Source of the DNA: Lamellibrachia columna | Lineage: Eukaryota; Annelida; Polychaeta; Sabellida; Siboglinidae | Assembly (NCBI GenBank): GCA_963662155.1 | Contig: OY759269.1 | Location: 19,316,864-19,380,863 of the forward strand | Direction of reading: 5' to 3' | DNA length: 64,000 bases | In this document: in pieces, positions 32,030-49,769 of the stretch | Layout of the letters: every line of letters begins with the position of its first letter | Numbering within the stretch: position 1 is the stretch's first letter | Notes under the pieces: generated by a model | Database searches by the model: none | What the model was told of the DNA's origin: nothing | The model's input: the letters and a program-made list of their open reading frames with translations, nothing else | Made by a program: the position numbers and the translations under genes

Positions 32030-32244
32030 AGTAGTTAGCAGAGGTTTCTGAGACCCCTTATCTAGGGCATCAAAAGATCAAAGTAAAAGGCCTCTAATAT
32101 CGCCCACCGCTAATGAGTGCGCGCAGCCAATCAGAAAGCAGCACTAGACCTTTGAGCGCCCCCTGGCGGCGGCGGCGGCGGCTGAGCGTGGCGCGCATGC
32201 GCGTGCCGCGCCCCTAGCGACCGGAGGAGGAACGAACAGTGACC
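32030..32244 (+). repeat. Polinton left terminal inverted repeat
   Basis: 215 bp, by eye identical to the reverse complement of 49,555-49,769. Contains a (GGC)n tract and the palindrome GCGCGCATGCGCG near its inner end. In protein-primed replication the termini act as origins (family knowledge). Confidence 0.97.
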
Positions 32245-33012: not shown

Positions 33013-33013
33013 C

Positions 33014-34718: not shown

Positions 34719-35548
34719 CAGAACAGTCCGGGCTTGCGTCGACGAAAATGAAGCGTCACCGTCACTCTACCGTATTCGAATGGCACGCGTCGACCCATGT
34801 CGTTCCTTATATCCACCTCTATCGAGTCGAAGTTCGAACGCACCAGCGGTACGTAGTGCACGTTGGTGAAACGAGCGGACACCGTGTCGCCGTTACGTCC
34901 GCTGATCGGAACGGCGCGCAACAGAGGTGCGAGAGTGTCGCCCACATTACGCGGCTCCACGACGTCCGTGTAGATGTAGAGGGTGTCGAACCCCTGCGTC
35001 AGGTTCACCACATCGTCGGCCTCGATGTGGAAGGGGTACGACGAGTCGGGATGGCGGGTGTCGATGGGGAGGATGGGAGACGACACACCCGACTCCGCCG
35101 GGCTGGCTACGGGTCCGCGGAATCCCAACAAGGTCGCCACCGCGCTGTGGTACGGTATGGTGAACGTGGTGTTCGCCGTCATGTGTAACGTCATTTTCTG
35201 AGTGACGGTACTATAACTGAGCTGAGCCTGTGTCTCATACGTCCGCATATTGGACAGTCCCTTGTTGACGTGATACAGCAACGTAAACGGATCGTCGTAA
35301 TACCCACACGGCAACTTCGAACGTATGGACGAGTCCGTAGCATCGATCGTGTTGAGGAAGAACCAGACGTCGGTATCCGTGACGTTGTACCAGGTGTGCG
35401 GATACTGGACCTCGGCCAACCCACACTCCCACTCGCCGGTAAGATCGATGCGTTGGGGCAAGGCCGTGACGTAATGGGTCAAGGTGTTGTCGGGGTGCAT
35501 CTTCATGGAAGCGTTGCTAGGCAGCGTCATGTAGAAATCAGTCGCCAT
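34718..35548 (-). CDS. Minor capsid protein, penton-like single jelly roll
   Basis: 276 aa. It opens with FYMTLPSNASMKMHPDNT, continues with ECGLAEVQYPHTWYNV (about 41-56) and has a predominantly beta-strand pattern ending in a basic RRRKP tail. This corresponds to the Polinton minor capsid protein that forms pentameric vertices (family knowledge). It lies between the membrane-protein gene (11-bp overlap with 35,538-35,846) and the core-protein gene (TGATG overlap), in the conserved vertex/core/hexon/protease order. Frame intact. Confidence 0.85.
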   Translation of the reverse strand: MATDFYMTLPSNASMKMHPDNTLTHYVTALPQRIDLTGEWECGLAEVQYPHTWYNVTDTDVWFFLNTIDATDSSIRSKLPCGYYDDPFTLLYHVNKGLSNMRTYETQAQLSYSTVTQKMTLHMTANTTFTIPYHSAVATLLGFRGPVASPAESGVSSPILPIDTRHPDSSYPFHIEADDVVNLTQGFDTLYIYTDVVEPRNVGDTLAPLLRAVPISGRNGDTVSARFTNVHYVPLVRSNFDSIEVDIRNDMGRRVPFEYGRVTVTLHFRRRKPGLF

Positions 35549-35846
35549 TGCGTCTCAACGTGGGATTGGGCAGTAGGTAACCCAACGAACTACTCAACAG
35601 AGCCGTCCACAGATTAGAATCGCCGCGACCTGTCGTCAGGTTGTAAATGCTGATCAGAATGACCGTGTACAGGACGACGACCTGACACAGAAACACGATC
35701 TCCTCTTTGGGACACGCGGTACCGAAAATATGCCAGGGAGTGCTGTCTGGCTCGTTCGGTGCAGCGTCAGTACAATCCGTCTCCTCCTCGTCTATGGTGG
35801 TGAGGCAGGTCGGTGGTGATGGTGATGGTGTCGCGTCGTGTGTCAT
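35538..35846 (-). CDS. Small single-pass membrane protein with conserved C-terminal tail
   Basis: 102 aa. An acidic, proline-rich N-terminus (residues 1-45) is followed by one hydrophobic segment (IVFLCQVVVLYTVILISIY, about 50-68) and a tail NLTTGRGDSNLWTALLSSSL that ends in GYLLPNPTL. I have the impression that this W-x-x-LL...GY-LP-P tail recurs in Polinton and adintovirus proteins next to the vertex gene, but cannot verify it here. A possible RGD tripeptide lies in the tail. A TATA box at 35,882-35,890, eight bases upstream of the integrase stop, is 40 nt from its ATG. Confidence 0.65.
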   Translation of the reverse strand: MTHDATPSPSPPTCLTTIDEEETDCTDAAPNEPDSTPWHIFGTACPKEEIVFLCQVVVLYTVILISIYNLTTGRGDSNLWTALLSSSLGYLLPNPTLRRNGD

Positions 35847-35876
35847 TCCTCGAATGCAGTGTCGTCGTGTACGCGG

Positions 35877-36950
35877 CTAGGCTTTATAGTTGACGAGTCC
35901 CTTGGCATCGATCCAGCTGTTGAAGTAGGGGCCATGGCCGAACCATTTCACCAAAGCTTCCTTACGTTTACCAACCGTACGGTGTTTCAGTACCGCTTCA
36001 ACACGGTACACTTTATCAAAGGGTACCGTCACCTTCTGCAGCTCCAGTTCGTAGAAGGTACCCTCCAGCACTTCGCCGAGATCGTCCCGCAAGAGATACA
36101 CGGGTGGGTCGGAGGGGTGAACCTCGTGTACCGTGAACAACTCTTCGCTCCAGTTCGTCTCGTAGCCCTTTTCGAACGTGCGTTTGTACTTGCTGACACG
36201 CACGCGATCCGACACGTGCAACTTGGGCACGCCCTTACCGTCGTGACCGTACAGACGTTGCCACACCTCTTCTTGGTTCTGTGCATTCACCTGTGACGGA
36301 GCCATACCGATCATGCGGTGGCGGGTGTTGTTATACGATCGCATCAAGGCCGGAAGGACGTCGACGTACCGCCACGTCTGGCGTTTCGTGAAGTAGCGCC
36401 ACATGCGCGTCTTCAACGTTCGGTTGAACCGTTCCACGACGGCTGCCTTCGTCTCCGCGTTGTGCGTGGAGAAGTGATGGATGTCGTAAGCCCGCAATAT
36501 AGACTGAACGGATTTGTTCCGAAATTCTCTGCCGTCATCCGTCTGCAACGTCTGTGGCCACGAACCGTCGATGAACGTGGATTGCAGCGCTTTTACCAAC
36601 GACGCCGCGGACTTGTTCTTCATGGGAACACACCAGGCCACTTTCGAGAAGACGTCGATCACCGTGAGGAGAAAGGCCATACCGCCGTTGAAGCGTTTGA
36701 CCTTCGACATGTCCACGAGATCGGCCTGCCACTGCTGATGCATACCACCCACGATGACTTGTCGTCTCTTGAAATGACGTCTCGCTGGTTTGTGTAAGGT
36801 GTAGGTGTCCTGTGCCGACAACCATGCCTTGACGGTCTTCTGTGGCAGACGCGTGACGCGTCGCAAGCCAGCGACGCCACCATAACTGCCTACCTTCGTG
36901 GGATCGAAGTAGACCTCGCTCATGGAGCGTTCTTCTCCCCTCTGAGCCAT
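35877..36950 (-). CDS. Retroviral-type DD35E integrase with C-terminal chromodomain (Polinton INT)
   Basis: 357 aa from the start chosen at 36,950. The catalytic triad is D in WQADLVDM, D in LQTDDGREF and E in AVVERFNRTLK, with 35 residues from the second Asp to Glu. Upstream is a helical segment with a LPQKTVKAWL motif. The C-terminus (VEAVLKHR to VKWFGHGPYFNSWI) is chromodomain-like and may bind modified histones to direct integration. The frame is open to 37,151, but that extension overlaps two small genes. The ATG at 36,950 overlaps the stop of the preceding small gene as TGATG; a second candidate start is 36,923. The product would catalyse insertion with the 6-bp duplication seen here. 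Confidence 0.9.
   Translation of the reverse strand: MAQRGEERSMSEVYFDPTKVGSYGGVAGLRRVTRLPQKTVKAWLSAQDTYTLHKPARRHFKRRQVIVGGMHQQWQADLVDMSKVKRFNGGMAFLLTVIDVFSKVAWCVPMKNKSAASLVKALQSTFIDGSWPQTLQTDDGREFRNKSVQSILRAYDIHHFSTHNAETKAAVVERFNRTLKTRMWRYFTKRQTWRYVDVLPALMRSYNNTRHRMIGMAPSQVNAQNQEEVWQRLYGHDGKGVPKLHVSDRVRVSKYKRTFEKGYETNWSEELFTVHEVHPSDPPVYLLRDDLGEVLEGTFYELELQKVTVPFDKVYRVEAVLKHRTVGKRKEALVKWFGHGPYFNSWIDAKGLVNYKA
35882..35890 (-). promoter_or_regulatory. TATA box for the membrane and vertex gene group
   Basis: ACTATAAAG lies within the last codons of the integrase gene, about 40 nt upstream of the ATG at 35,846. It belongs to a series of TATA boxes placed at gene ends in this element. Confidence 0.6.
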
Positions 36951-37111
36951 CAAAAGAGGTGGAGGGTCGATGTGTTGACGGGGGCGGTGACGTTGACTTC
37001 GGATTCCCACTGCTGACGAATGACGAGGAGCACGCCGACGTGTATTAGGACGCACACTATGGCACCCACAATGACAGCGGTGGAACAACAACGAGCTAGC
37101 GGAGTAACCAT
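36950..37111 (-). CDS. Small membrane protein (53 aa)
   Basis: Too short for simple ORF cut-offs. ATG at 37,111, stop at 36,950-36,952. Residues 11-30 (STAVIVGAIVCVLIHVGVLL region) are a clear transmembrane helix, followed by a polar tail with an NVT glycosylation sequon. The start lies inside the 3' end of the 44-aa gene and the stop overlaps the integrase ATG as TGATG, an arrangement that suggests reinitiation. Similar small membrane proteins cluster here (37,096-37,510). Function unknown. Confidence 0.5.
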   Translation of the reverse strand: MVTPLARCCSTAVIVGAIVCVLIHVGVLLVIRQQWESEVNVTAPVNTSTLHLF

Positions 37112-37230
37112 AGTCGGAATAACAGCTGTTGTAGAAGAATGTCGGCTGCAACGTCTCCCAGCACGGTAAGTCCTTCGAACAATAGCGCAGCGACGATGGA
37201 TCGGTACGTGTCCTGTGGATCGATGAGCAT
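37096..37230 (-). CDS. Small hydrophobic protein (44 aa), paralogue of the next gene upstream
   Basis: The start MLIDPQDTYRSIVAALLFEG parallels MSPDPQDAVYQAIVGAIFIS of the gene at 37,259-37,483, and both continue to a QQxLF motif. Non-coding DNA upstream is also duplicated (CTACGGATACGCGTCGTACC at 37,234 against a matching stretch at 37,496), so the pair arose by a tandem duplication of about 260 bp. A TATA-like GTATAAGG overlapping the preceding stop codon lies 27-34 nt upstream of the ATG. Function unknown. Confidence 0.5.
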   Translation of the reverse strand: MLIDPQDTYRSIVAALLFEGLTVLGDVAADILLQQLLFRLWLLR

Positions 37231-37256
37231 TACTGCTACGGATACGCGTCGTACCG

Positions 37257-37264
37257 CCTTATAC
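37257..37264 (-). promoter_or_regulatory. TATA box overlapping a stop codon, for the 44-aa gene
   Basis: CGTATAAG: the TAA stop of the upstream small gene is part of the box. The paralogous position upstream of the 74-aa gene reads CTATAG, where the TAG is the stop of the 258-aa gene (37,520-37,522). Confidence 0.55.
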
Positions 37265-37483
37265 GTTGTTCCGTCCAGCCAATGACGACGACGAAGCCTT
37301 GCGTGATGAGTGGGGAGGGTGGGTGGGTGTACGAGGAATGGTCCAGTCGTCGAGCGTGGGGGGTTCGAATAACGCCTGTTGCATAAAACTTTGGAGTATA
37401 CCGTGAGCCATCATGTAGAGTCCACTGATAAATATAGCACCGACGATGGCCTGGTAAACGGCGTCCTGTGGATCGGGCGACAT
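37259..37483 (-). CDS. Small membrane protein (74 aa)
   Basis: One hydrophobic segment (AIVGAIFISGLYMMAHGIL, residues 9-27), then an amphipathic QSFMQQALF and a proline/serine-rich tail ending SSSLAGRNNV. The start at 37,483 is preferred over the in-frame ATG at 37,510 because the paralogous copy has lost the upstream ATG (it reads ACG) but keeps this one. The tail resembles the end of the 258-aa protein (LTSLAGWDDL), consistent with the local tandem duplication. Function unknown; viral small membrane proteins of this type often act in assembly or entry, but that is inference only. Confidence 0.55.
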   Translation of the reverse strand: MSPDPQDAVYQAIVGAIFISGLYMMAHGILQSFMQQALFEPPTLDDWTIPRTPTHPPHSSRKASSSSLAGRNNV

Positions 37484-37519
37484 GACGAACACTGTGCTAC
37501 GGACACGCATCGTACCATC

Positions 37520-38296
37520 CTATAGATCGTCCCAACCAGCCAATGACGTCAAAGCCTTGCGTCTTTCGGGGGGTGGGGTGGGCATGGAATGTTCCATTCG
37601 ACGGCTCTTACGGCCGAGGGGTGTCCAACTTAGCGATCTTCGTGCACTACCTGCAGCAGCAGCACGCAGAGGAGTACGTGACCGACGAGAGGGAGAGATC
37701 GACGGCTCCGGACGTATGTAGGCTCTTCTGGCGACGTTACCGACCAACGTCATGGGTAGGTTGATGGCACGGAGTTGTCGTGCGAATGGCAGCCAACCCG
37801 TCGGAGCGGTCTGTCTCTTACGCAACATATCGTTAACGAGATCCACCACGTTACTTCCGACAACCGGCGCGCCCTCGTGTATCAGTTCACCGCGAGCGGT
37901 CCACGCGATATCTCTCTTGAGATGCTCCATCAAACGGATGGCTTTGGCCTGCATGGTCTTGGGAACGGTGGCCAAGACGGTGGCCTCCAGTCCGCTAATA
38001 GGGGCTGGTGCTGTACCCGCCGACCCCGACTCCGACGCCACCTCCGACTCGTTCACCGTGACCACGCGTAGCGGTTCCTTGATGCGTTTATCGGCCAAGA
38101 CGTTGTAACGCTGCAACACCTGATTATACAGGGTCACCTTGGTCCAGTCGTCTAGGTCCGTTCTATCCAGGATGGTCTTCATCTCGTCATCGAGGGCTTG
38201 CACCTTCTTGCCTAAGGTGTCGGTCGCGGGTGGGGGTGACCGAAGCGTGTCCAACAGTCGCGGGTCCACCAAGGCCATCTTGCGTGCGTGCTCCAT
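37520..38296 (-). CDS. Conserved Polinton protein of unknown function (258 aa)
   Basis: The N-terminus ALVDPRLLDTLR, followed by an acidic helical segment with LVDEMKTILDRTDLDDWTKV-like spacing and LYNQVLQRYNVL (about 57-68), resembles a family I associate with Polintons, though I cannot confirm it here. Residues 80-100 are Ser/Ala/Glu-rich linker. The C-terminal half contains GWLPFARQLRAINLPMTLVG and an Arg/Ser-rich basic tail. The second ATG (38,278, MALVDP) may be the true start. It begins four bases after the stop of the 123-aa gene. Possibly a minor virion or DNA-binding protein; not established. Confidence 0.6.
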   Translation of the reverse strand: MEHARKMALVDPRLLDTLRSPPPATDTLGKKVQALDDEMKTILDRTDLDDWTKVTLYNQVLQRYNVLADKRIKEPLRVVTVNESEVASESGSAGTAPAPISGLEATVLATVPKTMQAKAIRLMEHLKRDIAWTARGELIHEGAPVVGSNVVDLVNDMLRKRQTAPTGWLPFARQLRAINLPMTLVGNVARRAYIRPEPSISPSRRSRTPLRAAAAGSARRSLSWTPLGRKSRRMEHSMPTPPPERRKALTSLAGWDDL

Positions 38297-38300
38297 GTAT

Positions 38301-38672
38301 CTACCTCCTTTTGTTCAGCACCTCTCGGAGCAAGGGTAGCAAGACCGAACTGGCCAACGGTGCTAGGAAGGCCGATAGGAAACCGCCGCTCTGTCCCTCA
38401 CCAACCTGTGGTTGCAGCAGTAGACGTCTTCTCCTGGCAGCTGGCGTTCGTCTATTAGCCAACGCGCGTAACCTCGTCCTGTATTTATTCAATCGTTGCC
38501 TCTGTAAAGGGGACAATGGAATGTTCTTTGTTAGTATGTTGTATGCACACTCGGCTAGTGCACACAGCAGATCGGAGTCGGCGTTGGCGATGATGGCCTT
38601 TTTAATTTTGTTGTTCTTGACTCTGGCCAGAGCCTGTATGCACACGATGTGTCTCTTCACCCGGGCAGACAT
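38301..38672 (-). CDS. Basic protein with hydrophobic C-terminus (123 aa)
   Basis: Start at 38,672, chosen because a strong TATA box (38,708-38,716) lies about 40 nt upstream; the longer open frame to 38,915 is a shadow of the ATPase gene. The N-terminal half is helical (ADSDLLCALAECAYNILTKN), the middle is highly basic (LNKYRTRLRALANRRTPAARR), and the C-terminus is GGFLSAFLAPLASSVLLPLL, an amphipathic or membrane-active helix. This basic-plus-GGFL layout recalls small virion proteins of Polintons and adenovirus-like elements. Function inferred only. Confidence 0.6.
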   Translation of the reverse strand: MSARVKRHIVCIQALARVKNNKIKKAIIANADSDLLCALAECAYNILTKNIPLSPLQRQRLNKYRTRLRALANRRTPAARRRRLLLQPQVGEGQSGGFLSAFLAPLASSVLLPLLREVLNKRR

Positions 38673-38707
38673 GATGCGAATGAAGAGACTATCCACACAC
38701 TCGGTCG

Positions 38708-38716
38708 TTTTATACC
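38708..38716 (-). promoter_or_regulatory. TATA box overlapping the ATPase stop codon
   Basis: GGTATAAAA, in which TAA (38,710-38,712) is the stop codon of the packaging ATPase. Distance to the next ATG (38,672) is about 36-44 nt. Confidence 0.65.
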
Positions 38717-39366
38717 TTCGGCAAGTACACGTACTGAACACCGTCGTCTGGAAAGATGGCCGTACGCAGACGCATGTCCTCGGGCGTGTCCTGTTTGAGA
38801 TCGACCAACAGATAACCGTACGGTATCGCCGTGGCGTCTTTAAACACCTCTTGCACGAACTTGCCGCGTCCCGGATACATCTGCCGCGCCAAGGTCGACA
38901 TCTGCGATGCATCACGTGGATTCTTGAACACCACCATGTACTGCGAATTCAGACTGATGGTGCGACTCTCTTTGTTTTTAGGGAACAGGTTCTGTACGAG
39001 ATACAGCACGGACGTGTTCCTGTGGTGACTTTTTTTAGTGAACAGGGCCGTGACCCGTTCGTCCGTTTCTGCCATGAGATCGTCTATGACGATGAGGTTC
39101 CTCGTTGTCGGATCGAACATGGCCGCCGTCGGTAACCCTTCCTCGAATCGCACGTGACCCAATTCCGTCGTTGCGTAAGCCTCTTGCCATTCTCCGTAAC
39201 ACCACGTGATCTGCTGGGGCGGTGGATCGATCATCGCAGCGGCGTGACGCAACATACGCGTCACGAAAGTACTCTTGCCGCACCCCGTCGGTCCGGCGAC
39301 GATGCACGTGAAGGGGTGTTTCCATCGCGCATCCATGAATGCGTGTGCAACGAATGCAGCGTGCAT
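38710..39366 (-). CDS. FtsK/HerA-type genome-packaging ATPase (A32-like)
   Basis: 218 aa from the first ATG, or 208 aa from MDARWKHPF at 39,336, which I prefer because a TATA-like GTATAG at the polymerase stop lies about 45 nt upstream. Walker A is AGPTGCGKS (residues 24-32) and Walker B is LIVIDDLM (91-98), followed by the sensor-like LYLVQN. The family pumps DNA into preformed capsids. It sits between the polymerase and the basic protein, as in other Polintons. Frame intact with all ATPase motifs. Confidence 0.9.
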   Translation of the reverse strand: MHAAFVAHAFMDARWKHPFTCIVAGPTGCGKSTFVTRMLRHAAAMIDPPPQQITWCYGEWQEAYATTELGHVRFEEGLPTAAMFDPTTRNLIVIDDLMAETDERVTALFTKKSHHRNTSVLYLVQNLFPKNKESRTISLNSQYMVVFKNPRDASQMSTLARQMYPGRGKFVQEVFKDATAIPYGYLLVDLKQDTPEDMRLRTAIFPDDGVQYVYLPKV

Positions 39367-39377
39367 CGCCTTTTCTA

Positions 39378-42300
39378 CTATACGTCCACCGGACCCGTGG
39401 TCACCCCGTCCTCGTGCACCACGCGTTTGGCGTAAAAGAAGGTGAGTGCATCCCTATTCTGCACGTACGTCATGACGGTGGAGTTATGCACCCGGAAACC
39501 TCGGTTCGAACCGCCTCCGCTCCGACGGTTGGTGAGCACCTCCAGGAACGCGTCCTTGTCTATGGTGTTGTGCCGTTTGCTGAGACCTTTGGTGCTGTAC
39601 TTGTCGGTGGCGCCGAAACAGTAGTACGTCTTGCTACACAACCCCACGAACCCCGCACCGGACCACTCGACCTTGAACAGACCCGGCGTCCTCTTGTCGA
39701 ATGCTCTGCGCGCCTTGCAGCACGCCTCGTCGCCGACCCACGGTCTATTGGCGAGACGACAGCGCACGTAGTCGTTCCGATGGTCGTCGCAACATTCGGA
39801 CGGCAGCCATTCCGACCGATGGCGGAAATAATGGGCTCGCAGTGTCGGGGTCACGAGGTCGTCGACGGACTCGGCGGCCAAGGCTAAATAGGCACTATCC
39901 GTATCCATCTCGCAGTACTCGAACAGAGGGCGCTCCACGTACCTGACGATGAAATCGTAATAGAACTGCAACATGCGCAACTTGGCGTACTGCAGAACGA
40001 AGAATCCCACGTGTACGGGTAGGGTGTACTTGACGGTCTTCTTGTTCAGTTCTATCTCGTACGCGTCGTCGACGACCATGTCGAGTTGACGGAATCGTTT
40101 ATCGTTGACGAGGAGCGATGCTGCCTTCTCCGTGCAGTAGCTGACGTCACGATGTCGGTCGACGTTGGTGATGGTCTTTCCGTAGCCCGAGTTCCCCAGC
40201 AACTTCATGGTGTCCGCGATGATGGTCCTGTCTCGGTGAACGTCGCCCTCGCGTCGGGCCTTGGACACTGCATCGCCGAACCGCCGGAAACACGGAACGG
40301 GATCGTATTCGACGACCTGGTACACGTGCAGCACCTCGAGACCGTGGTCCAGATACCATCGCAGCAGTGGCGTTGCGAGCAGTATCTTGTCGCCGCAATA
40401 ACTACCCACGAGCATGCGACGCGGAGTCTTCATTATGTCGTGCTCTTCGGCGTATCGGCGCATGAACGGACCGAGATCCTCCCGTTGCATACCGATGTTC
40501 TTGAACACGGGCTGCATCTCGGCAAAGTGCGCGCGCAACGCTTCCGGTACGCGTACGTCGCACTCGATCATGCCGAACACGGTTCCGGCACGCACTCCGT
40601 TCAGGATCTGTTGTGACGTCATCGTCCATTGCACGTGTCGACGTCGGGGAAATGCTGCATCCACACACTTGCGTACGGCTGGTGTTCGTCTCATCTCCTT
40701 CCACTCGCATTCCCACAACTCGACGACCGTGACAAAGTGTCGTAGATAGGCGGTGGTCTTTCGGGTCTCGGCGAGCAGTTGCGCCATGGGTTTCCCGTTG
40801 ACGGCGTTCACCTCCTCTCGGTTGCACGAGCAACCGTGAAAGAAGCAACCTTGGAACTGATAAGCCGTCTTCGTCTCGCTGCACCATCCGTCCACCCGAT
40901 GTTTGCCTATGCGCTTCTCTCGTCCGTTGATCTGATGCCGTATGGACCGTCCCGTGCGTTCGGATTCCCACGTCAACCATTCTCCGGCCATCTGTCCGTA
41001 CAGCTGCGCCGATTCGGGGCGGAAGTCCTTCTCCGCTCGTCGTCGCGTGTACCATCCCATAGGCATGTCCTGCATGAGCGACCACAGGTACAGTGCGTTC
41101 GCATCGTATCCGACGATCGCTCGACAGGGACGAGCCGCCTCTCCGTACTCGTTCCGACGTAGCGTGGTGACCCCTGTCTCGTGATAGCGATGAAAGATGA
41201 TCGAAGGCCCGCCTACAATGTTCGCTTTGACGAGGTCGTGCAGGTCTTTGTTCTTCTCGTTGAAGATGGTAAAGTAGGTCTTCTCTGGCAGGTCGTTGAA
41301 CAGGTACAGCAGGGTCAGACCGGGTACGCTGATACCTTGCTTGAACATGTCTATTCCCCGTTGTCGATAGAACGCGAACTGTCTGTCGATGGCCTGTAGA
41401 AAGGGAACCACGTCCCTGTTGTTGTACCAGACGAGAAAGTCGCGCAACGTCGTCATGCCATTGACGCGCCAGGCCTCCTGACAACTGGCGTAATCCTCGT
41501 CTGAAATCCCTTCGTTCTTCAGTCGACTGAAGAAGGCCTCTTTCGGTGGAAGTGTGGTGTCGTCGAGTCTCTCCAGTCTGTCCATGTACTCGTACGGGAA
41601 ATGACCTTTCGTCACCTCGCATCCGTACGCTTTCAGATACTTGTCGTAGCTGAACCCGGGGGCTATGTAGTTGATCATGTCTACGAATTTCAGCTGATCC
41701 GTCGAAAGACACATGAAAGTGTTGTTGCGTTTGATTACGAACATTGACCCGATGCCGTCGGTCTCGACTTTCCTGTTGCCCTCCTGCTCCCTCTCGTCCG
41801 CGGCCTCGTCCTGTTCCACGTCGGTCTTTGAAGTCGTCAGGAAGTACGGTATGAGGAACTGTTTGATGGCATTGAGATCATACTTCCCCGAATTGAACCC
41901 GACGACGGGTAACTGACGCATCCATCCATACATTTGTCCCATCAGCGTTTTGTACGGATTGGTTGCCGCTCGCCCTTTCTTCTCGCCGGCCTCCCGTGCA
42001 GCTGCGTCCCGTGCAGCCTCCTCCCGTGCGTCCCATTTCGTCAGCTCTTCTGCGAGTTGTTCCAGTACATGATCGTACGAGCCTTTGATCTTGTCGTACG
42101 CGGCCTCACTCATCGTTTGCAGGACAGTCATCATGGTGCTCACCAACTTGTTGACGTCTCCGTCCGTGACGATGCATGTCACCTGTTCGTGTCCGGGTAC
42201 GTTGGATGCCACGCTGACGCTCAACGGGACGTGACGCGCAACCCAGTGAACCTGGGCACTGTCCGCCGGAAGGTGTTCGGTGTCGAACCAACACTCGAAG

Positions 42301-43907
42301 TCGAAGGTGGCTCGGTACGGATAGTACTGCAACGCTTCGGCCACTCGGATGTTCTCGTCTGCCAGACGTTCGAACACCGATGGAGTCGAATGGTACACGC
42401 CACCAGGATAGACTCGGCGCACACCCCCCGTACACGTGCTCTCGTGGTTGCGTAGATGCCATGCGTCTTTCCACAACGAGTCACCGCACTTCCGACATCT
42501 GTACGAGTGACAGTACATGCGTCTATCCTGGATGTAGGAAAAATGCGTCCCGTGCAGATTGAGGTAGAGTGTGTCCGGGTATTTACATACCGAGCGACGA
42601 ACGAGTTCTGCGGTCGCCTTTCCACCATCCTCCTCCGCCTCATCTCCATCCGGTTTTACGAGACTGTACACGCACACGTTTGTTTCGAACGTGGTCTCGA
42701 CACGATAGAGGTCGTCCATCGTGACCCCGGCAAATGCTGCCATGGGTACGCCGTCTTGGGCGTACGTCGCGTACAGCGTCTCCACAGCCGGTTCCAATCG
42801 ACGCCGTTCACATCCGCGATGCAGGGCCAGACATCGAAAGAGACACAGGTTGTCATTGTACCTTTTGCTATACTGAGGCTCCGTGTCCAATGCGATGACG
42901 GCTCTGTTCTTCTTGATGTACATGGGAAGGTCGGTCATTCCTACACATCCTATCGGGTGATCGATGATGCGATTGACGAAAAATGTGACATTGGTCACGA
43001 GTTCGCACACCCACGCCGAATCCGGTCTTTGATTGATGGCCCATTGCAAGATGTCGGTTTCGCGGATGCGTTCGAGGAACTTATCAAAGTCCTTGCTGTT
43101 GGTGACGAGACTGGGCTCGTCCAGGTAGCGTCCACAGCAGTTGCACGAGGGATGGTAGTACTTGTATTGACCCGTGTTCTTGTTCCTCAGAACGAACCCG
43201 TAACTGAGGTTAATCTTGAACGCGTTGGTCTGTTCCTGGAACACGTTCCTCAACGACGGCTCTAGAACGGTCGTGTCCAGCGTCGTTACTCTGTAATCGT
43301 ACCTGCACTGGAGAGGACCTCTCGTTACACGTGTCCGTATGGTCGACCAGTGCGCTCGTACGACATCTAACAGTTCCGGCGACAGGTTGTCGGCGAAGGG
43401 GAGTCGGGCAGGTGGGTCTATAGGGTCGGCATCGGTAACGAGTGGATGGTTGGGTGTGGTGTCTTCCCTGATTGATGTCTTAGGTGATGGTGGCGTCGTG
43501 TCGTCGGCGTCGGCGGTACACGCATTTCGTACGTGTCTGGTCAGGTGATTGCGTCTATTGTACGTCTTTCCACATTTCGCACATGTGTACACTGTGGTCT
43601 GTTTTCTATTACTGCTACTGCTACTGCTACGGCAACGGTTACTGCTAAGACGACATACGGACCTCACATGGTCTTGCAGATCGTCCCATATGTCGAACGT
43701 TGCATCACATTTACAGGAATACTTAGTTCGCTTTGCCTGTTCGCTAGGTGGCTCCTCCCGTGGCACCTCCCGTGGCACATCTAGTGGTGGCGCCACCGAA
43801 TACGTATGTTCGATCACTGCCGGTGTCGCATGACTCGCTAGGTGGCGTTTGAGTGCTGCATAGGTGTCGAGCACCTGTCCGCAGTGACGACATTGGTGTC
43901 TTTTCAT
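39378..43907 (-). CDS. Protein-primed family B DNA polymerase with zinc fingers and OTU-like segment (Polinton POLB)
   Basis: 1,509 aa. Order: three C2H2-type fingers (about 6-25, 65-85, 109-129); an OTU protease-like segment with NDNLCLFRCLA (Cys355) and LHGTHFSYI (His455); a CxxC finger (471-491); exonuclease motifs FDFECW (Asp536, Glu538), GFNSGKYDL (Asn672) and YNNRD (Tyr828, Asp832); motif A GYDANALYLW (Asp935); a YQFQGCFFHGCSC insertion (about 1016-1028); motif B KLLGNSGYGK (1235-1244); motif C MDTDSAY (Asp1335, Asp1337). It replicates the linear genome from a terminal protein primer. Catalytic residues are all present. A TATA box at 43,963-43,972 is about 60 nt upstream of the ATG. Confidence 0.95.
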   Translation of the reverse strand: MKRHQCRHCGQVLDTYAALKRHLASHATPAVIEHTYSVAPPLDVPREVPREEPPSEQAKRTKYSCKCDATFDIWDDLQDHVRSVCRLSSNRCRSSSSSSNRKQTTVYTCAKCGKTYNRRNHLTRHVRNACTADADDTTPPSPKTSIREDTTPNHPLVTDADPIDPPARLPFADNLSPELLDVVRAHWSTIRTRVTRGPLQCRYDYRVTTLDTTVLEPSLRNVFQEQTNAFKINLSYGFVLRNKNTGQYKYYHPSCNCCGRYLDEPSLVTNSKDFDKFLERIRETDILQWAINQRPDSAWVCELVTNVTFFVNRIIDHPIGCVGMTDLPMYIKKNRAVIALDTEPQYSKRYNDNLCLFRCLALHRGCERRRLEPAVETLYATYAQDGVPMAAFAGVTMDDLYRVETTFETNVCVYSLVKPDGDEAEEDGGKATAELVRRSVCKYPDTLYLNLHGTHFSYIQDRRMYCHSYRCRKCGDSLWKDAWHLRNHESTCTGGVRRVYPGGVYHSTPSVFERLADENIRVAEALQYYPYRATFDFECWFDTEHLPADSAQVHWVARHVPLSVSVASNVPGHEQVTCIVTDGDVNKLVSTMMTVLQTMSEAAYDKIKGSYDHVLEQLAEELTKWDAREEAARDAAAREAGEKKGRAATNPYKTLMGQMYGWMRQLPVVGFNSGKYDLNAIKQFLIPYFLTTSKTDVEQDEAADEREQEGNRKVETDGIGSMFVIKRNNTFMCLSTDQLKFVDMINYIAPGFSYDKYLKAYGCEVTKGHFPYEYMDRLERLDDTTLPPKEAFFSRLKNEGISDEDYASCQEAWRVNGMTTLRDFLVWYNNRDVVPFLQAIDRQFAFYRQRGIDMFKQGISVPGLTLLYLFNDLPEKTYFTIFNEKNKDLHDLVKANIVGGPSIIFHRYHETGVTTLRRNEYGEAARPCRAIVGYDANALYLWSLMQDMPMGWYTRRRAEKDFRPESAQLYGQMAGEWLTWESERTGRSIRHQINGREKRIGKHRVDGWCSETKTAYQFQGCFFHGCSCNREEVNAVNGKPMAQLLAETRKTTAYLRHFVTVVELWECEWKEMRRTPAVRKCVDAAFPRRRHVQWTMTSQQILNGVRAGTVFGMIECDVRVPEALRAHFAEMQPVFKNIGMQREDLGPFMRRYAEEHDIMKTPRRMLVGSYCGDKILLATPLLRWYLDHGLEVLHVYQVVEYDPVPCFRRFGDAVSKARREGDVHRDRTIIADTMKLLGNSGYGKTITNVDRHRDVSYCTEKAASLLVNDKRFRQLDMVVDDAYEIELNKKTVKYTLPVHVGFFVLQYAKLRMLQFYYDFIVRYVERPLFEYCEMDTDSAYLALAAESVDDLVTPTLRAHYFRHRSEWLPSECCDDHRNDYVRCRLANRPWVGDEACCKARRAFDKRTPGLFKVEWSGAGFVGLCSKTYYCFGATDKYSTKGLSKRHNTIDKDAFLEVLTNRRSGGGSNRGFRVHNSTVMTYVQNRDALTFFYAKRVVHEDGVTTGPVDV

Positions 43908-43962
43908 GTTGCTCTGCTCTGCTCTACGTGTCTACAACTGAGAGAGTGCAGTTGTTAGTACA

Positions 43963-43972
43963 GTTATATAGT
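43963..43972 (-). promoter_or_regulatory. TATA box of the polymerase gene
   Basis: ACTATATAAC about 56-65 nt upstream of the polymerase ATG. Directly upstream of it is a (GGT)n tract (43,977-44,014). Confidence 0.65.
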
Positions 43973-43976
43973 ACGT

Positions 43977-44498
43977 GTGGTGGTGGTGGTGGTGGTGGTG
44001 GTGATGGTGGAGGTTATTGGTGAAGGGTGTATCACCTATGGTGGTATTGGCAACTGTGTGTGTGTGTGTGTGTGTGTCCCACTATCCATGGCTACGGGTT
44101 ATATTTCAACTCATGACAACACCACTAACAACACGTTTCGTTCATTGTAAGACGTTTTATTGCGTATATAAAGACATAGCGATATACATAATATACATAT
44201 ACATATACACGGTTAGACCTATATAATTACTATGATGATGATGATGTTGATTACTTGTGGGTTTGTGGGAATGTTCCATCCTCGCCAGTGACCCCTAGCT
44301 TACGGTCGTTTATCGACACGCCAGTGGCTAGTACAATGATTATTAACTTGTGGGTTTTTACACCGCGACAGAGGTTCCGTACAATGATGTAATATATATA
44401 GGTTGGTATGTATATTTATATATATATGTATTACTATATGTCTTGCAAATACAATATGTGCGCGAATACATACATACAATACAGGCGAGAGACGGTGC
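43977..44498. other. Intergenic region between the polymerase and the spliced unit
   Basis: Holds a (GGT)n tract (43,977-44,014), a (TG)n tract (44,055-44,076), and a minus-strand AATAAA at 44,156-44,161 as polyadenylation signal for the spliced unit. Two CTTGTGGGTT-containing segments (about 44,254 and 44,347) are followed by CGCCAGTG or ACCGCGACAGAGGTTC and resemble the repeats at 32,440-32,532. Confidence 0.5.
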
Positions 44499-44621
44499 TT
44501 ATTGAAATGCGGAGGTGTCAAGCATGAAATCAACAATTCCCTGTATTAAAATATGTATTGTGCGTCTTCTCTCATCCCTTGCTAGCACGGGTGCTTCCTC
44601 CACCTCTTCCTCCCTCTCCTC
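44499..44621 (-). CDS. Alternative terminal exon, cassette 3 (40 aa)
   Basis: Follows the acceptor TTTCTTGTTATGTAG; frame 0 from the first base gives an acidic start ending in VEEAPVLARDERRR, then a hydrophobic helix (TIHILIQGIVDFML) and a TAA stop. The acidic/x-PV/basic/hydrophobic layout is shared with cassettes 1 and 2. There is no ATG in position, so it must be reached by splicing. Last cassette before the polyadenylation signal. Function unknown. Confidence 0.5.
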   Translation of the reverse strand, partial: EEREEEVEEAPVLARDERRRTIHILIQGIVDFMLDTSAFQ

Positions 44622-44731
44622 CTACATAACAAGAAATGCGTCTACTGTATTCGTATACTGATATGATGTTTTCTATTATCTTTACTAATTTCAATAATGT
44701 GGTCAGCAATGTCGCTCATTAATTCATAAAT

Positions 44732-44833
44732 CTACTGTTCATCATATGTTGATATAATGTATTCAAGTATCATCACCACTAATTGTCGGCATGCCCGTCT
44801 ACGCAGTTCGATCGGTGACACAGGTACGTCATC
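44732..44833 (-). CDS. Alternative terminal exon, cassette 2 (33 aa)
   Basis: The acceptor TTTAATTTGTTCTGTAG has a good pyrimidine tract. Frame 0 reads DDVPVSPIELRRR, then a hydrophobic helix (QLVVMILEYIIS) and an in-frame TAG. It has the same architecture as cassettes 1 and 3 and is similar in length. It also resembles the end of the 270-aa exon product (EEVTVDVCRSL). Confidence 0.5.
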   Translation of the reverse strand, partial: DDVPVSPIELRRRACRQLVVMILEYIISTYDEQ

Positions 44834-44925
44834 CTACAGAACAAATTAAAGGATACCAATATATCACTCCATATTACGTCATACACCAACTACTTCTAAC
44901 TAGGTTATGTTTACTACTGCTACTA

Positions 44926-45033
44926 CTAATAATAATACTCTGTTGACGACGTCATATATGCGGAGACCAATACTCGAGATCGCTCCCGAATGCTGGCTGG
45001 GAGGACGGGTGCCTCGTCATCATACTCTTCACT
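44926..45033 (-). CDS. Alternative terminal exon, cassette 1 (35 aa)
   Basis: Acceptor TTGGTGTTATGTAG. Frame 0 reads SEEYDDEAPVLPASIRERSR, then VLVSAYM and a tyrosine-rich end before TAG. APVL is shared exactly with cassette 3. Between the cassettes the DNA is AT-rich and non-coding. Confidence 0.5.
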   Translation of the reverse strand, partial: SEEYDDEAPVLPASIRERSRVLVSAYMTSSTEYYY

Positions 45034-45129
45034 CTACATAACACCAATGTTACTATTACTAATAATACAATTATTACGTTTACTACTAATTACCACCTAT
45101 TTAAACACCAACAACAACAACAACACCTT

Positions 45130-45539
45130 CTACCTAAGCGGTCGCGTTATTGCCCGCGGTTGACGGATGGCACATCGCACGTATTGCATTGTGTGCTCCT
45201 GATATTCGGCGGAGAGTACCGTGCTGGCGAGGGACCGACACACGTCGACCGTCACCTCTTCCACCGTGGCAGGGGCGGTTCTCCGCCACAGTTTAGTTAT
45301 AAGACGTGCGAGGTGCAGTTGCATTTTGTGGAAACACACCTTGCCCGTCTTGTCCGCGTCTTCTTCTTCGTCGGTGGCGTCGTCCTCTTCGTGGGCATGC
45401 GCCGTCGACGTCGACGGCTGCGGCTCCGGCTCCGGCTCTGTGTGGGTGATGGTATGTTGATCGGGGATGTCCACCTGTTCACCGTCGCGGGTCAATACGA
45501 CGGTTTTATCCGGGAAGACATACAGGGTCGTCAGGGATG

Positions 45540-45576
<37 letters not shown>

Positions 45577-45942
45577 CTGCTTGCGCTGGACGTGTGGTGG
45601 CGACGCTGGACTAAATTGGAAGTCCGCATCGTCGACTTTCGCAGGCTCGGGGGATGACGCAATCGCATCCTCATCCTCACTGTAGTAATGGGGAGGGGTG
45701 TTTATACTCCACGCGTCTTTCTCGGACTCATCAGAATCCGATTCGACGCTCCACGGTGGTAGCAACCCCTCTTGGTTGTCCGGACACGATTCGGGATTGG
45801 TCAGGGGTGATGGTGGGTAGAACGAGGTTGTCATAGAGGATGTCTTCAGCCTCTTCGCCGCTCGTGACACCCCATCCTCGCTGTCGTCGTACAGTGCCGC
45901 CAGGTCGCGTTTATACGCGTTCTGGAGTTGCTCCAGTCCCAT
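45130..45942 (-). CDS. Acidic nuclear-type protein or exon (270 aa) with poly-Asp tract
   Basis: Begins with ATG directly after an acceptor-like TTGTGTTCAATAG, so it can be a phase-0 exon joined to the leader at 46,977-47,057 or be translated alone. It has an AAKRLKT nuclear-localisation-like cluster (about 28-34), serine/acidic blocks, a run of 12 Asp (about residues 122-133, encoded by a (GTC)n/(GAC)n microsatellite), EPEPEPQ, and a helical C-terminus. An internal phase-0 donor-like GAG|GTGACG at 45,256 would allow splicing to the cassettes and replacement of its last 41 residues. It looks like an acidic regulatory protein of the E1A type in composition only; no homology recognised. Confidence 0.6.
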
Positions 45943-45982
45943 CTATTGAACACAACGCATAGGTTACATTACGTGGGTTATA

Positions 45983-46543
45983 TTATTCCGCGTCGCCCTG
46001 CATATCGTTATTGTCGTATGTTTCGTACATACTCTTTCTGACCAATTCGGTCACTCGGTTACGCCATTTCATGGTCCCGCACGTTGCGATGACATCTATA
46101 GATAGCCACCGCAAGACGTGCATGACCATGCTGGTCGATGGCACGTAACGATCCTTATCATCGTTTAGATTCATTATGCGTTCAACCTCGTCACTGGCAT
46201 ATCGCACACTGGCGGCCTCTAGCGCCTTATAGAATATGTTTTCATTGGTCATGGCTTCGGATCTATCACGTAACCTATCTAGACCGCTAACAGTAGCCTC
46301 CATATCAGCGCTACTGCTAATGCTATAATGTGACGCCGACGACGCACTGTTCTCCCCCTGGTCGTCATCTGATATTACAATCAGTGGTGGCGGCGAACCG
46401 CTGTCCACCGAGGAGGAGAACAGTATTTCCGTGCTGTTAGACTGTAACCATTGCATTACCTTAGCGCGTCCATCTCCGTCGATGATGTCATCGCCGCTTC
46501 CGGTTGCCACTGCAGTGGCTGCCGCAGCGACGATCGAGCCAGT
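45983..46543 (-). CDS. Acidic alternative exon (186 aa), no start codon of its own
   Basis: The open frame reaches back to the acceptor CGTTGACAG and is preceded in frame by TGA. There is no ATG in the first 29 codons (the first is near 46,456), so it is best read as a phase-0 exon. It contains an SDDDQGENSASSAS-type acidic/serine segment, then a helical C-terminal domain with YVPSTSMVMHVLRWLSIDV and KWRNRVTELVRKSMYETY. The end resembles the basic-hydrophobic helix of the cassettes (R-R, L-V, ETYDN). Joined to the 27-codon leader it would give 213 aa. Function unknown. Confidence 0.55.
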   Translation of the reverse strand, partial: TGSIVAAAATAVATGSGDDIIDGDGRAKVMQWLQSNSTEILFSSSVDSGSPPPLIVISDDDQGENSASSASHYSISSSADMEATVSGLDRLRDRSEAMTNENIFYKALEAASVRYASDEVERIMNLNDDKDRYVPSTSMVMHVLRWLSIDVIATCGTMKWRNRVTELVRKSMYETYDNNDMQGDAE

Positions 46544-46559
46544 CTGTCAACGGAATGGT

Positions 46560-47768
46560 TCACACTGTGACTACTTCCATGTTGGCCACCGTGTAATTTA
46601 CGTACGGTCCTGCCATACGTTTACGAATGGTCACCATGACTCGGGCCCCCCGCAGCATGTCCAGTGCTGCATACCGCTCGGCATCTGACGTCATGTTTAT
46701 GTAATCGTTCCCCGTGTATCCTAGCAACTGGACAGCCTTGTCGTTAAATATGGTTCCCCACACTTCGCTGCCGATGGCGTCTTGTAGGAGGACACGCATG
46801 GCGAACCGATACACTACACCCCGCTGCCATCGATGAATGGGACACACATACCCGTTGTTTTCGGGAATGACCCGTTTGTTGCACTGCTGACATGATGGAT
46901 AAACGATATATTTCTCTTGAACGGCGACTTGTACTATGGTTAACGGTCGTCTTATTATATAGGTACCGTTACCTACCTGCTTCTCGAGTTGGCTCAGAGT
47001 GGTCATCATCTCGGCGTCCTGGTCGCTGGTTGTCTTGGTGACGGTGGTGGCGGCCATTTCTATGTCTCTGCTGGTGCTGATCGTGAAGGGTTTTGAAGTC
47101 GTCTGTGAAGCGGAGAGCGGTTGTATGCCTCGATCACTCCGAGTCGGGCTTATATAGTCCTCTCCCCGACTGTGGCGCGCTTTCTTATCGTCGCCCCTTG
47201 GTCGAGCGCGTGACGCCGATGCTGATGCTGCATGTCTGGTATCTGCGTCCGACCCTTGGTCGATCGCGTGATGCGGCCGCTGGATGTCTGCCATCTGACT
47301 GTACTCTGGAGTCTGATGTAATCGTATGGCCTCGCGTACTAGCATGGTTATATGTCCTAGCATGTTCTGACCGGCTTGACCACTGTATGTCAGTGCACCC
47401 CAGTATCCTTCCCGACTCTTGACCCATTCCTGCAACTGGGAATGCCCAGTGTCCAACAGTCGTTTACGTAGGGTTGGATCGCGATATTTAACGGTCACTA
47501 ATCCATACATTATTCCATATCGTTGTCTCTTCCATTCTGCGCGTAACATTTCCTTTTCTCGTATGCACTTGCTGAGCTGTTTCGCCTGTAGACCCGTGCG
47601 CGTGGCCAGCATCCTTTGCGCCGTCTGCATGTCGTCATGATGCATGCACTTCCGCCATTGATACGCGCTTTCGACACTGGTGAATTCTCTATTACAGGCG
47701 TGTATCCTGCAGGCGTAGAAATTGGACAGGAACTGTTTACCTCCTTTAAACCTTATAGGTTGGTTCAT
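46560..47768 (-). CDS. NADAR domain in frame with an RPA70-C-type zinc OB fold
   Basis: 402 aa. Residues 5-148 match the NADAR (YbiA/RibX-like) fold: FKGGKQFLSNFYACRI, FTSVESAYQWRKC, IMYGLVTVKY, LLDTG, WG and GQNMLGHITMLVREA. Bacterial NADAR enzymes remove ADP-ribose from guanine in DNA or act on ADP-ribose derivatives (family knowledge). Residues 150-237 are a low-complexity linker. Residues 265-402 resemble the C-terminal OB fold of replication protein A, with zinc ligands C293, C296, C309 and H312 (SCQQCNKRVI, YVCPIHRWQ), suggesting single-stranded DNA binding. An internal TATA box and ATG (47,057) may give a separate 165-aa OB-fold protein. Upstream promoter unclear. The fusion is open throughout but could instead be two overlapping transcription units. 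Confidence 0.75.
   Translation of the reverse strand: MNQPIRFKGGKQFLSNFYACRIHACNREFTSVESAYQWRKCMHHDDMQTAQRMLATRTGLQAKQLSKCIREKEMLRAEWKRQRYGIMYGLVTVKYRDPTLRKRLLDTGHSQLQEWVKSREGYWGALTYSGQAGQNMLGHITMLVREAIRLHQTPEYSQMADIQRPHHAIDQGSDADTRHAASASASRARPRGDDKKARHSRGEDYISPTRSDRGIQPLSASQTTSKPFTISTSRDIEMAATTVTKTTSDQDAEMMTTLSQLEKQVGNGTYIIRRPLTIVQVAVQEKYIVYPSCQQCNKRVIPENNGYVCPIHRWQRGVVYRFAMRVLLQDAIGSEVWGTIFNDKAVQLLGYTGNDYINMTSDAERYAALDMLRGARVMVTIRKRMAGPYVNYTVANMEVVTV
46977..47057 (-). CDS. Shared 27-codon leader exon with strong splice donor
   Basis: ATG at 47,057, about 95 nt downstream of a TATA box, begins MAATTVTK. After exactly 27 codons comes CAG|GTAGGT, a near-ideal donor in phase 0. Unspliced, the frame continues into the OB fold. 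Spliced, it can join any of five downstream phase-0 acceptors (46,543; 45,942; 45,033; 44,833; 44,621). The leader is also in frame with the upstream NADAR domain. Confidence 0.55.
47149..47158 (-). promoter_or_regulatory. Internal TATA box in the NADAR-OB linker
   Basis: ACTATATAAG on the minus strand, about 95 nt upstream of the ATG at 47,057. The low-complexity protein linker coincides with this promoter and 5' leader, which suggests the linker exists because regulatory DNA is being translated through. Confidence 0.6.
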
Positions 47769-48065
47769 GATGACTTTATGACGTTAACATGTACAGTTAC
47801 TGTCTTAACTACGCGGTGTTCTAGCACTGTAGAGTACGTAACCCCCTGCTTTTTCCTTGCGTGATGGATGCCAGGTGTTGGTAAGCTGACAGTTGCCGGC
47901 CGCTTATCTCTTTTCTGCCGGCCTCTTATCTGTTTTCTCATTAGTGTGGTATTGTTCCTAGGCTGACGCAGGTTCTAGCATGCTCTATATAAGACGTCTG
48001 GGTTCGTCGTGTCGTCATACCAACCACCATTGCCGTCGACATCGTTATTAGCACACACACGCATA
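47769..48065. promoter_or_regulatory. Divergent promoter region of the right arm
   Basis: Plus-strand TATA box CTATATAAGA at 47,984-47,993, about 75 nt upstream of the ATG at 48,066. Two direct copies of TGCCGGCCKCTTATCT (47,894-47,909 and 47,917-47,932) contain GATA-type motifs and lie between the divergent genes. No clear TATA box for the NADAR gene. Confidence 0.55.
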
Positions 48066-48880
48066 ATGTCTGTGTTCGGCTTGCGCGATTGCATGGAGTT
48101 CGTCGTCGTCGCCGAACTCCTGCAGGCGGTACCTCTATTACAGGCTATTGTGTGAGTATTTCTTTTATTTATTTATTTATTTATTTCTATTTTGTTACTT
48201 TCATAGCTCTCCATAGCTCATACCTGTTTTAAATTATGCCTTTGCATATTGTGACTCTTATTGTGTCCTTTACTTATTACAGCGTTCCATGTTTCAACTG
48301 GGCCTGCGTCCTCATCGAATTGATGGAGGACGCCCCCCTACGCCGAAGCTGCCAGGCGACCGTCCTGTTCCGAGAGGCGCTCTACGATGCCGGTCTCCTG
48401 TCGGCCTTCGGTCTTCATGCCAGTCGTTGGCGCCACGTAATGAGTGACATTGCGTTTATGTACGGCGATGGATATCGCACCTCGACCGCCTCCCCAGAGT
48501 CCTGGGATGACGACTTGATCGCCATCGACGCAGCCGTCACCGACGCTCACGCTGCCGACGAGGACTTCGACGACGCCGGAGAGTGGGACGACGACATAGC
48601 CGCCATAGACGCCGCCACCGAAGCCCACGAGGTCGAGGTGATGGCCTTCCGGGCTCATATGACCAAATGGGAGCGGGTGATGCACGAGTTGATGCTCATC
48701 CACGCCCCATCGACCACATCCGTTTTCAGTCACGTTCACCTCGGCCCCGTCCATCTCCCTTCACTCTTCCGGCGTCGTCGCTCTGTATCGCTACGAATTG
48801 CGTTGGCTCGCAAATTGACCGCTCGAGCCGTCCGGAGGTCGTTGCTGTCGGCATTTAACACTGTTCAACAATGCCCTTGA
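48066..48880 (+). CDS. Spliced right-arm gene of unknown function (227 aa)
   Basis: Exon 1 48,066-48,151 and exon 2 48,283-48,880, with donor GT|GTGAGT and acceptor TACTTATTACAG. The junction restores one frame (codon split 2+1) and avoids the TGA just after the donor. Exon 1 adds a hydrophobic leader rich in V, L and A. The middle holds two tandem modules, SWDDDLIAIDAAVTDAH and EWDDDIAAIDAATEAH, an internal duplication of an acidic helix. The C-terminus is basic with RRRR and KLTARAVRR. No homologue recognised. It is the only plus-strand gene in the element. Candidate polyadenylation hexamer ATTAAA at 48,964-48,969. Confidence 0.65.
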
Positions 48881-48890
48881 CTTTATTATA

Positions 48891-48930
<40 letters not shown>

Positions 48931-49554
48931 GCTTTTATATTTGTACTTGTTCTTTTTCGTTTTATTAAATTTGCATCACCTCATATTCACGTCTTGTATT
49001 GCGTTCTTGTTCCAACTGCGTGTTGGCACATTATATTATATTATATTATATTTTATGTCCATTTTCGTCCTGCTACATTTTATTTAACGAACGGTCCGAT
49101 TTCCCTCGTCCAGCGGTTATATTGTAGCCATGCATGTCGACTATTTATTCACTTTTACACATTCGTCTTATCTTTATCGGTTTTAATTTTATCACGTATT
49201 ATGTCCACTACATATAACAGGCTATAACATACAGCGGTCCCACATCAATGTCGTCACTGCAACTTAGTTGCTGTTTATCGCTTATTAACTCAGCTCACTT
49301 GCTACATTGTACAGATTAGCGTCCTTTGATCTCGCGCTATGGCTCACAGCTGGATAAACGCTTCGGCTTACAGTTAACTCCAGTCGTTCGGACGTCCAGT
49401 TGTCATTAGCTAACCACTCGGACTGGTCACTCCGTCGAGGTCACGGTCACGTGTTGTCGTGGGTGGGTGGGTGGGTGGGTGGGTGGGTGGTGGTGGTGGG
49501 TGGGTGATATTACGTGTATTTTCTTTGTTCCTATGTCCATCATAGATGACCACC
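48881..49554. other. Right subterminal region of the Polinton
   Basis: Non-coding. Holds an (ACT)n microsatellite (48,892-48,931) and a G-rich tract of repeated GGGT (49,460-49,505) that could form a G-quadruplex about 50 bp inside the right inverted repeat. No gene recognised. Confidence 0.7.
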
Positions 49555-49769
49555 GGTCACTGTTCGTTCCTCCTCCGGTCGCTAGGGGCGCGGCACGCGC
49601 ATGCGCGCCACGCTCAGCCGCCGCCGCCGCCGCCAGGGGGCGCTCAAAGGTCTAGTGCTGCTTTCTGATTGGCTGCGCGCACTCATTAGCGGTGGGCGAT
49701 ATTAGAGGCCTTTTACTTTGATCTTTTGATGCCCTAGATAAGGGGTCTCAGAAACCTCTGCTAACTACT
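49555..49769 (-). repeat. Polinton right terminal inverted repeat
   Basis: Reverse complement of 32,030-32,244 with no difference seen by eye. Followed by the second CACGTC target duplication at 49,770-49,775. Confidence 0.97.

Follow-up and report, generated by a model that had tools for sequence, protein, structure and literature searches.

The question raised by this locus is how a short region of a Polinton provirus, in which several reading frames open without a start codon, could be expressed as protein. The locus lies in a stretch of 64,000 nucleotides (nt) from the annelid Lamellibrachia columna (assembly GCA_963662155.1, contig OY759269.1, positions 19,316,864 to 19,380,863), hereafter called the window. 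All coordinates given below are positions in the window, and all features of the element are read on its minus strand. A preliminary description of the region had proposed that one leader exon is joined to several alternative C-terminal tails. We compared the region with copies of the same Polinton family and with divergent Polintons in the same genome. These sequence comparisons strongly support a shared leader that would be alternatively spliced to several in-phase tails, with a protein containing a zinc OB domain as the intron-retained product.

The leader exon and its in-phase acceptors

A TATA box (TATATAAG, 47149..47156) precedes an ATG at 47057, where the leader exon (46977..47057) begins. 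This exon is 81 nt long, encodes 27 codons that would form the common N-terminus, and ends in phase 0 with CAG|GTAGGT; the last exon base is 46977 and the candidate 5' splice site GTAGGT occupies 46971..46976. Five candidate acceptors follow, at 46543, 45942, 45033, 44833 and 44621. Each is preceded by AG, and the phase-0 frames that open there are 186, 270, 35, 33 and 40 codons long. Direct reading of the sequence thus bore out both the leader and the five acceptors as they had been described. The frames were designated alternative exon B (45983..46543), alternative exon C (45130..45942) and the short cassettes k1 (44926..45033), k2 (44732..44833) and k3 (44499..44621). Between k2 and k3 lies the remnant of a fourth cassette, k4 (44642..44727), which lacks the acceptor and the first codons.

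The frame that runs on from the leader into the intron (46560..46976, with its stop) was expected to encode a zinc OB fold. Indeed, the unspliced frame from 47057 to 46560, of 165 amino acids, matched Rep_fac-A_C (PF08646) with an E value of 1.9e-12 and 47.6 bits, above the cut-off of 28.5. Profile matches in the PDB were 4gnx (a putative protein) and RPA70 chains. Furthermore, the candidate zinc ligands C56, C59, C72 and H75 were invariant in 12 aligned OB sequences. Over the domain, the Polinton OB thus resembles the DNA-binding domain C of RPA70 in the Pfam and PDB profile matches and in the candidate ligand positions. The zinc ligands of RPA70 are four cysteines, whereas those of the Polinton OB would be C-C-C-H, and the Polinton domain stands alone in a 165-residue protein. 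An intron-retained RNA would encode an RPA70-like OB protein with putative zinc binding.

Exon B has an acidic region, a stretch that we take to be SUMO-interaction-like, and a C-terminal part predicted with low confidence to be helical. Its AlphaFold model had a mean predicted local distance difference test score of 48.6, with a disordered N-terminal half and five helices, and at least 175 database homologs were found among 7999 candidates scored. Exon C is acidic and of low complexity, and its C-terminal segment is conserved. Pfam and PDB searches with exons B and C returned nothing convincing as to function.

On these features we propose the following scheme. One promoter (TATA at 47156) and one poly(A) signal (44161) would yield a single 3'-co-terminal pre-mRNA. 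On retention of the leader intron, translation from the leader ATG would give the small protein with the RPA70-type zinc OB domain. If the donor at 46977 is used, the 27 leader codons would be joined in phase 0 to exon B or exon C. The leader could likewise be joined to the short paralogous cassettes, either directly or by way of a donor inside exon C at 45340. The outcome would be a protein family with one N-terminus and interchangeable C-termini. We consider that this whole scheme, with one pre-mRNA, the OB protein on intron retention, and the leader spliced to B, C or the cassettes, is very probably correct.

Conservation in related Polintons

The region of the unit was taken from 35 of the 95 other places in the genome that matched the major capsid protein (MCP) gene; these were the 35 lowest-scoring places, chosen to maximise divergence. 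Blast matched 33 of the 35, with no match for L013 and L025. Five copies were left out of the full alignment as truncated or rearranged (L028, L032, L033, L035 and L040), as were L014, cut at the locus edge, and L038, locally rearranged. The alignment consisted of 26 copies and the window. No stop codon was present in any exon across these 27 sequences. TATATA and the GT of the leader donor were kept in all 27, as was the acceptor AG of exon B (CAG), exon C (TAG), k1, k2 and k3 (26 TAG and one GAG). Exon C occurred in 13 lengths (265 to 281 codons) and exon B in five, and since all of these variants stayed open, the length changes keep the frame. The k4 cassette was intact in 25 of the 27 and truncated in the window and L012. 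In the whole genome, exact 21-nt matches to the leader end were followed by GT in 109 of 109 cases.

A genome search with PF08646 gave 768 candidates, 150 of which were scored, many of them unlike the window family, and 20 loci were taken. One of these, L044, matched none of exon B, NADAR and PolB and was taken for a host exon; the other 19 were treated as Polintons and form the divergent set. Eleven aligned OB proteins from it were 49-73% identical to that of the window, and tree distances reached about 1.5 substitutions per site. A NADAR homolog lay upstream in 17 of the 19 loci (not in L056 and L060; weak in L052) and a PolB homolog downstream in 17 (not in L061 and L063). The preliminary description had suggested asking whether related Polintons keep the donor and acceptor phases, and they do. 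The leader donor reads GTAAGT in 19/19 loci (a stricter motif matched 17/20), and TATA[TA][AG] matched 111-281 nt before it in 17/19. The exon B acceptor was located in 17/19 (not in L056 and L061). The exon C acceptor with its phase-0 start was also located in 17/19, L059 being alike by eye and L063 unplaced.

The divergent loci differ in how exon B adjoins the OB frame. In clade 2, the exon B acceptor lies a few bases past the OB stop, as GTTGACAG|GATGAC, and two stops stand between the OB and exon B. In clade 1, the TAG that stops the OB frame is also the exon B acceptor and is followed mostly by EEDKEN or KEDKEN, a start that we take to be a KEN-box-like peptide. This double use of TAG was seen in L045, L046, L048, L049, L052, L054, L058 and L059, near 1861-1890 with the OB on the plus strand. 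In L052, exon B is broken after four codons. Both the donor and the exon B acceptor were located in 17 divergent loci; the distance between them was 429 nt in 15 of these, 428 nt in L060 and L062, and 433 nt in the window.

Beyond this genome, a profile search of 5.8 billion proteins found 136 OB homologs with E < 1e-3, and among the 120 matches listed none carried a name. The place of the donor was readable by pattern in 83 of these 120, as V in 77, A in 4 and I in 2; the remaining 37 fell outside the pattern for mixed reasons. In P0082, P0083 and P0095 the place reads E-A-S, which could correspond to a GC donor. Searches of viral contigs with the OB, MCP and PolB proteins found no relative.

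The cassettes were examined with a profile built from six of them. The window holds three, and one or two were found in each of seven divergent loci (L047, L050, L051, L053, L055, L057 and L060); the profile had no match in the other 12. Homologs of k1 occur in L051 and L053, those of k2 in L047, L050 and L060, and those of k3 in L050, L055, L057 and L060. In the cassettes of the window, and in the one listed first for each of the seven loci, a phase-0 frame opens directly after TGTAG with a codon other than ATG. Among second cassettes, that of L050 also opens in phase 0 after TGTAG, that of L047 is frameshifted, and the acceptor of that in L060 was unplaced. The k1, k2 and k3 profiles scored one another's members, though not every member, above the best shuffled control, and k4 was tied to k3 by profile score. 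By these sequence profiles the cassettes are paralogous and variable in number. Kinship of the B and C tails with the cassettes was sought and was not found.

The 3' end of the unit may behave as an evolvable array of terminal exons. Cassettes with their own acceptor and tail would duplicate in tandem, diverge and be lost as modules, so that the shared N-terminus would change partners with no need of a new promoter or start codon; in one clade, the stop of the OB frame would even serve as the acceptor of the next exon. We favour this account by a modest degree. Since the OB stop coincides with the splice acceptor in that clade, one trinucleotide would end the OB protein and open the next.

Alternative readings

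The manner in which the cassettes are joined admits a variant of the proposed splicing, in which the 5' part of exon C is their sole partner and the products form a two-level set. Within exon C, the candidate 5' splice site AAG|GTGTGT in phase 0 (45334..45339, last exon base 45340) has a counterpart (GAG or GAA|GTGTGT) in 7/7 divergent loci with cassettes and in 0/12 of those without, where the seven readable places are GTTGCR, GCAGCG or GTAGCG. Because this donor accompanies the cassettes in this manner, we think that at least part of their joining goes by way of exon C. However, only two clades are compared, so that the co-occurrence could reflect a single evolutionary event; the phases of the leader and the cassettes are also compatible with direct joining, and exon C contains other GT hexamers, for instance GTATGT in L048 and L052. 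Joining through exon C only is thus quite possible, at somewhat less than an even chance. The internal donor proposed earlier, at 45,256 (GAG|GTGACG), did not hold up: it is present in the family and in L051, but reads GCGACG in L050 and CTGACG in L057, and as a site lost in divergent relatives it was rejected.

Separate small genes with start codons of their own, which merely chance to follow AG, are one alternative to splicing. In the window family exon C does begin with ATG and contains TATAAA (at 45915 and 45706 in the window), and an internal Met lies near residue 30 of exon B. In the divergent locus L053, k1 has an early Met, its third codon. In the 17 divergent loci where it was located, however, the first codon of exon C was ATA or ATT and never ATG, so that exon C could not start itself there. 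The exon nevertheless begins in these loci with approximately I(S/H)NGLxQLRxAY, homologous to MGLEQLQNAY of the window. Its first 15 codons gave a pooled proportion of synonymous differences (pS) of 0.65 and of nonsynonymous differences (pN) of 0.235, for pairs over 15 loci (the window and 14 others). Other cassettes with the TGTAG acceptor lack a Met before their conserved core, and in L048 and L058 no ATG precedes the conserved N-terminal part of exon B. Independent genes were rejected on these three grounds and are very unlikely. A selected, conserved frame of exon C that opens at AG without a start codon appears to be the strongest single argument for splicing.

Functionless, decaying remnants are another alternative. 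The window has one truncated cassette, breaks occur in many divergent copies, and within the family no constraint on the tails is visible. All frames are kept in the 27 aligned family copies, however, and selection is visible between families. In the comparison of the window with L051, dN/dS was 0.13 for the OB, 0.32 for exon B, 0.33 for k1, 0.20 for exon C (with dS saturated) and 0.50 for the short leader. For k1 of the same pair, pS was 0.36 and pN 0.15; for the window and L050, the values were 0.48 and 0.20 in k2 and 0.54 and 0.33 in k3. That the cassettes and long frames are mere remnants is therefore highly improbable. Within the family, pN/pS was 0.10 for the leader, from very few changes, and 0.35 pairwise for k2.

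Stop-codon readthrough or a frameshift from the OB into exon B is scarcely credible and was rejected. One group of relatives has the OB stop TAG and then exon B in the same frame, and in the database protein P0072 this stop is missing and the OB continues into ENKENAG, a homolog of the clade-1 exon B start. However, the 4-nt longer spacing in the window places exon B in another frame than the OB while the splice phase is kept, which argues for splicing, clade 2 has its two intervening stops, and exon C and the cassettes lie farther along, past other stops.

Several further observations limit the case for alternative splicing from the leader or weigh against it. Of the 85 YAG sites in the window, a loose acceptor filter passes 24, including four of the five proposed acceptors; that of k1 (45,033) fails. 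Frames of 87-151 codons also open at three other passing sites, which lie inside coding exons. The V codon at the donor is a weak sign when taken alone, as a codon is invariant in 6 of 22 comparable columns. Within the family, pairwise pN/pS was 1.36 for the rest of exon B, 0.76 for exon C, 1.44 for k1 and 1.74 for k3, and by distinct variant sites no tail reached significance, the OB alone doing so (p 0.04). Either these variants are of recent origin or constraint is weaker on the tails than on the OB. Between clades, conservation is poor in the first part of exon B (pN/pS 0.66), and frames have decayed in several divergent copies. No retrocopy of a spliced RNA was seen in the genome: the exact 21-nt leader end was followed by a sequence other than GT at 0 places, and 0 family exon C starts followed an AG other than TAG, a search that had no positive control. 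Because of the TATAAA sequences inside exon C, internal promoters may also exist.

The pattern had been described as unlikely to arise by chance. The window alone is suggestive of this, not decisive; it is the comparison with relatives that carries the pattern beyond chance. The idea of one leader with several in-phase tails likewise stands with the conserved donor, acceptors, phases and startless tails, but without the second donor at 45,256. As a conserved sequence arrangement, the unit is real. We strongly infer that it is spliced; the pairs of sites used, the use of the promoter and the roles of the proteins are predicted from sequence. The unit may be expressed early and its tails may act as effectors.

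Known systems, the element and its neighbours

The early region of polyomaviruses has a common first exon, an intron-retained zinc-binding product (small t) and spliced products with other C-termini, all from one promoter and one poly(A) site. The Polinton unit, likened to it by architecture, would follow the same plan as the T antigens; it differs in its leader of 27 codons, in the RPA70-type OB of the retained product and in its several, partly paralogous tails. In adenovirus E4, orf6 and orf6/7 share one N-terminus and, in a unit with a common 3' end, differ through the use of alternative 3' splice sites. The plan of one N-terminus and different tails in E4 and other shared-leader units is the one proposed here, whereas the cassettes of the Polinton are duplicated and lost within one family. 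A common donor with several conserved in-phase acceptors, as in shared-leader viral early units, was found in the Polinton, a likeness of function and not of descent. A Pfam search of exons B and C gave no E4-type match. We take adenoviruses to be a virus lineage related to Polintons, and a candidate packaging ATPase in the window has a match to Adeno_IVa2.

To our knowledge, Polintons are usually annotated as simple, uninterrupted gene sets. Under such annotation the unit would be split into unknown open reading frames, and startless cassettes of 33-46 codons would be missed. If the proposed splicing is correct, Polintons join polyomaviruses and adenoviruses in having such a spliced unit. This would bear on whether units of this type have independent origins or predate those virus families, and the genome, with its more than 100 copies, would offer a natural experiment in the gain and loss of terminal exons.

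Accessory genes are known from Polinton/Maverick elements and adintoviruses, and the window unit would likewise encode accessory proteins of an animal Polinton-type element. Among such proteins, an 'oncoid' class defined by short motifs has been described (PMC11071296). In the main text of that paper, the OB fold, replication protein A and NADAR have 0 mentions, and splicing is mentioned once, for an iridovirus. In passages of PMC11071296, PMC11071308, PMC12220804 and PMC8363768, group I self-splicing introns are the one kind of intron described for Polinton-like viruses (PMC12220804). Among the papers listed by a search of the open literature on splicing in Polintons, Mavericks and adintoviruses, outside which the founding Polinton papers fell, none described a unit of this kind.

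The provirus extends over 32030..49769, with termini AGTAG...CTACT and the 6-bp target duplication CACGTC on both sides, as read by eye. A repeat search of the window gave inverted arms of 220 nt (32025-32244 and 49555-49774). Such terminal inverted repeats and a 6-bp target duplication mark Polinton/Maverick elements, as does the retrovirus-type integrase, which was found by Pfam on the minus strand (PF00665, E 5e-13) together with a chromodomain. On the same strand, a candidate packaging ATPase matched Adeno_IVa2 with 21.1 bits against a cut-off of 21. The match to an adenovirus-type protease (Peptidase_C5, E 0.047) remained under the cut-off. Capsid-type genes were assigned by place, and the double jelly-roll MCP by size and place only, with neither a Pfam match nor a convincing PDB sequence match. 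In the genome (879.7 Mb in 30 contigs), the MCP search found at least 96 places, 97-100% identical, and the gene was stop-free in 94 of 96. Given these places and the 109 exact leader ends, the family probably represents a large and recent expansion.

Upstream of the unit lies a gene with a NADAR domain (47320..47768, PF08719, E 6e-17). The leader is contained in an open frame of 402 codons whose N-terminal part is this domain, and the frame is open into the OB here. A NADAR-OB fusion protein was rejected, as the OB frame is closed between the two in all 17 divergent loci with a NADAR match; we accordingly take the open continuity to be accidental and treat NADAR as a gene separate from the OB. 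The linker between them had a pairwise pN/pS of 1.03, against 0.47 for NADAR; by distinct variant sites the ratios were 0.57 and 0.74, neither of them significant. Literature searches for Polinton together with NADAR found no paper.

At the other border, AATAAA at 44156..44161, 3' of all tails, is the sole copy of this hexamer from the leader to the PolB gene; the variant AGTAAA occurs at 45084, 44915 and 44686. The next gene downstream is PolB-like (39378..43907, PF03175, E 2.9e-4, under the curated cut-off) and has its own TATA-like box near 43970, as seen by eye. The borders of the unit thus fit nested alternative 3' ends that would share one promoter and one poly(A) signal. The PolB-like protein carries C2H2 zinc fingers at its N-terminus. 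Outside the unit, at 28528-30150, long tandem arrays of 27-nt and 19/37-nt repeats adjoin the element and create spurious long open reading frames.

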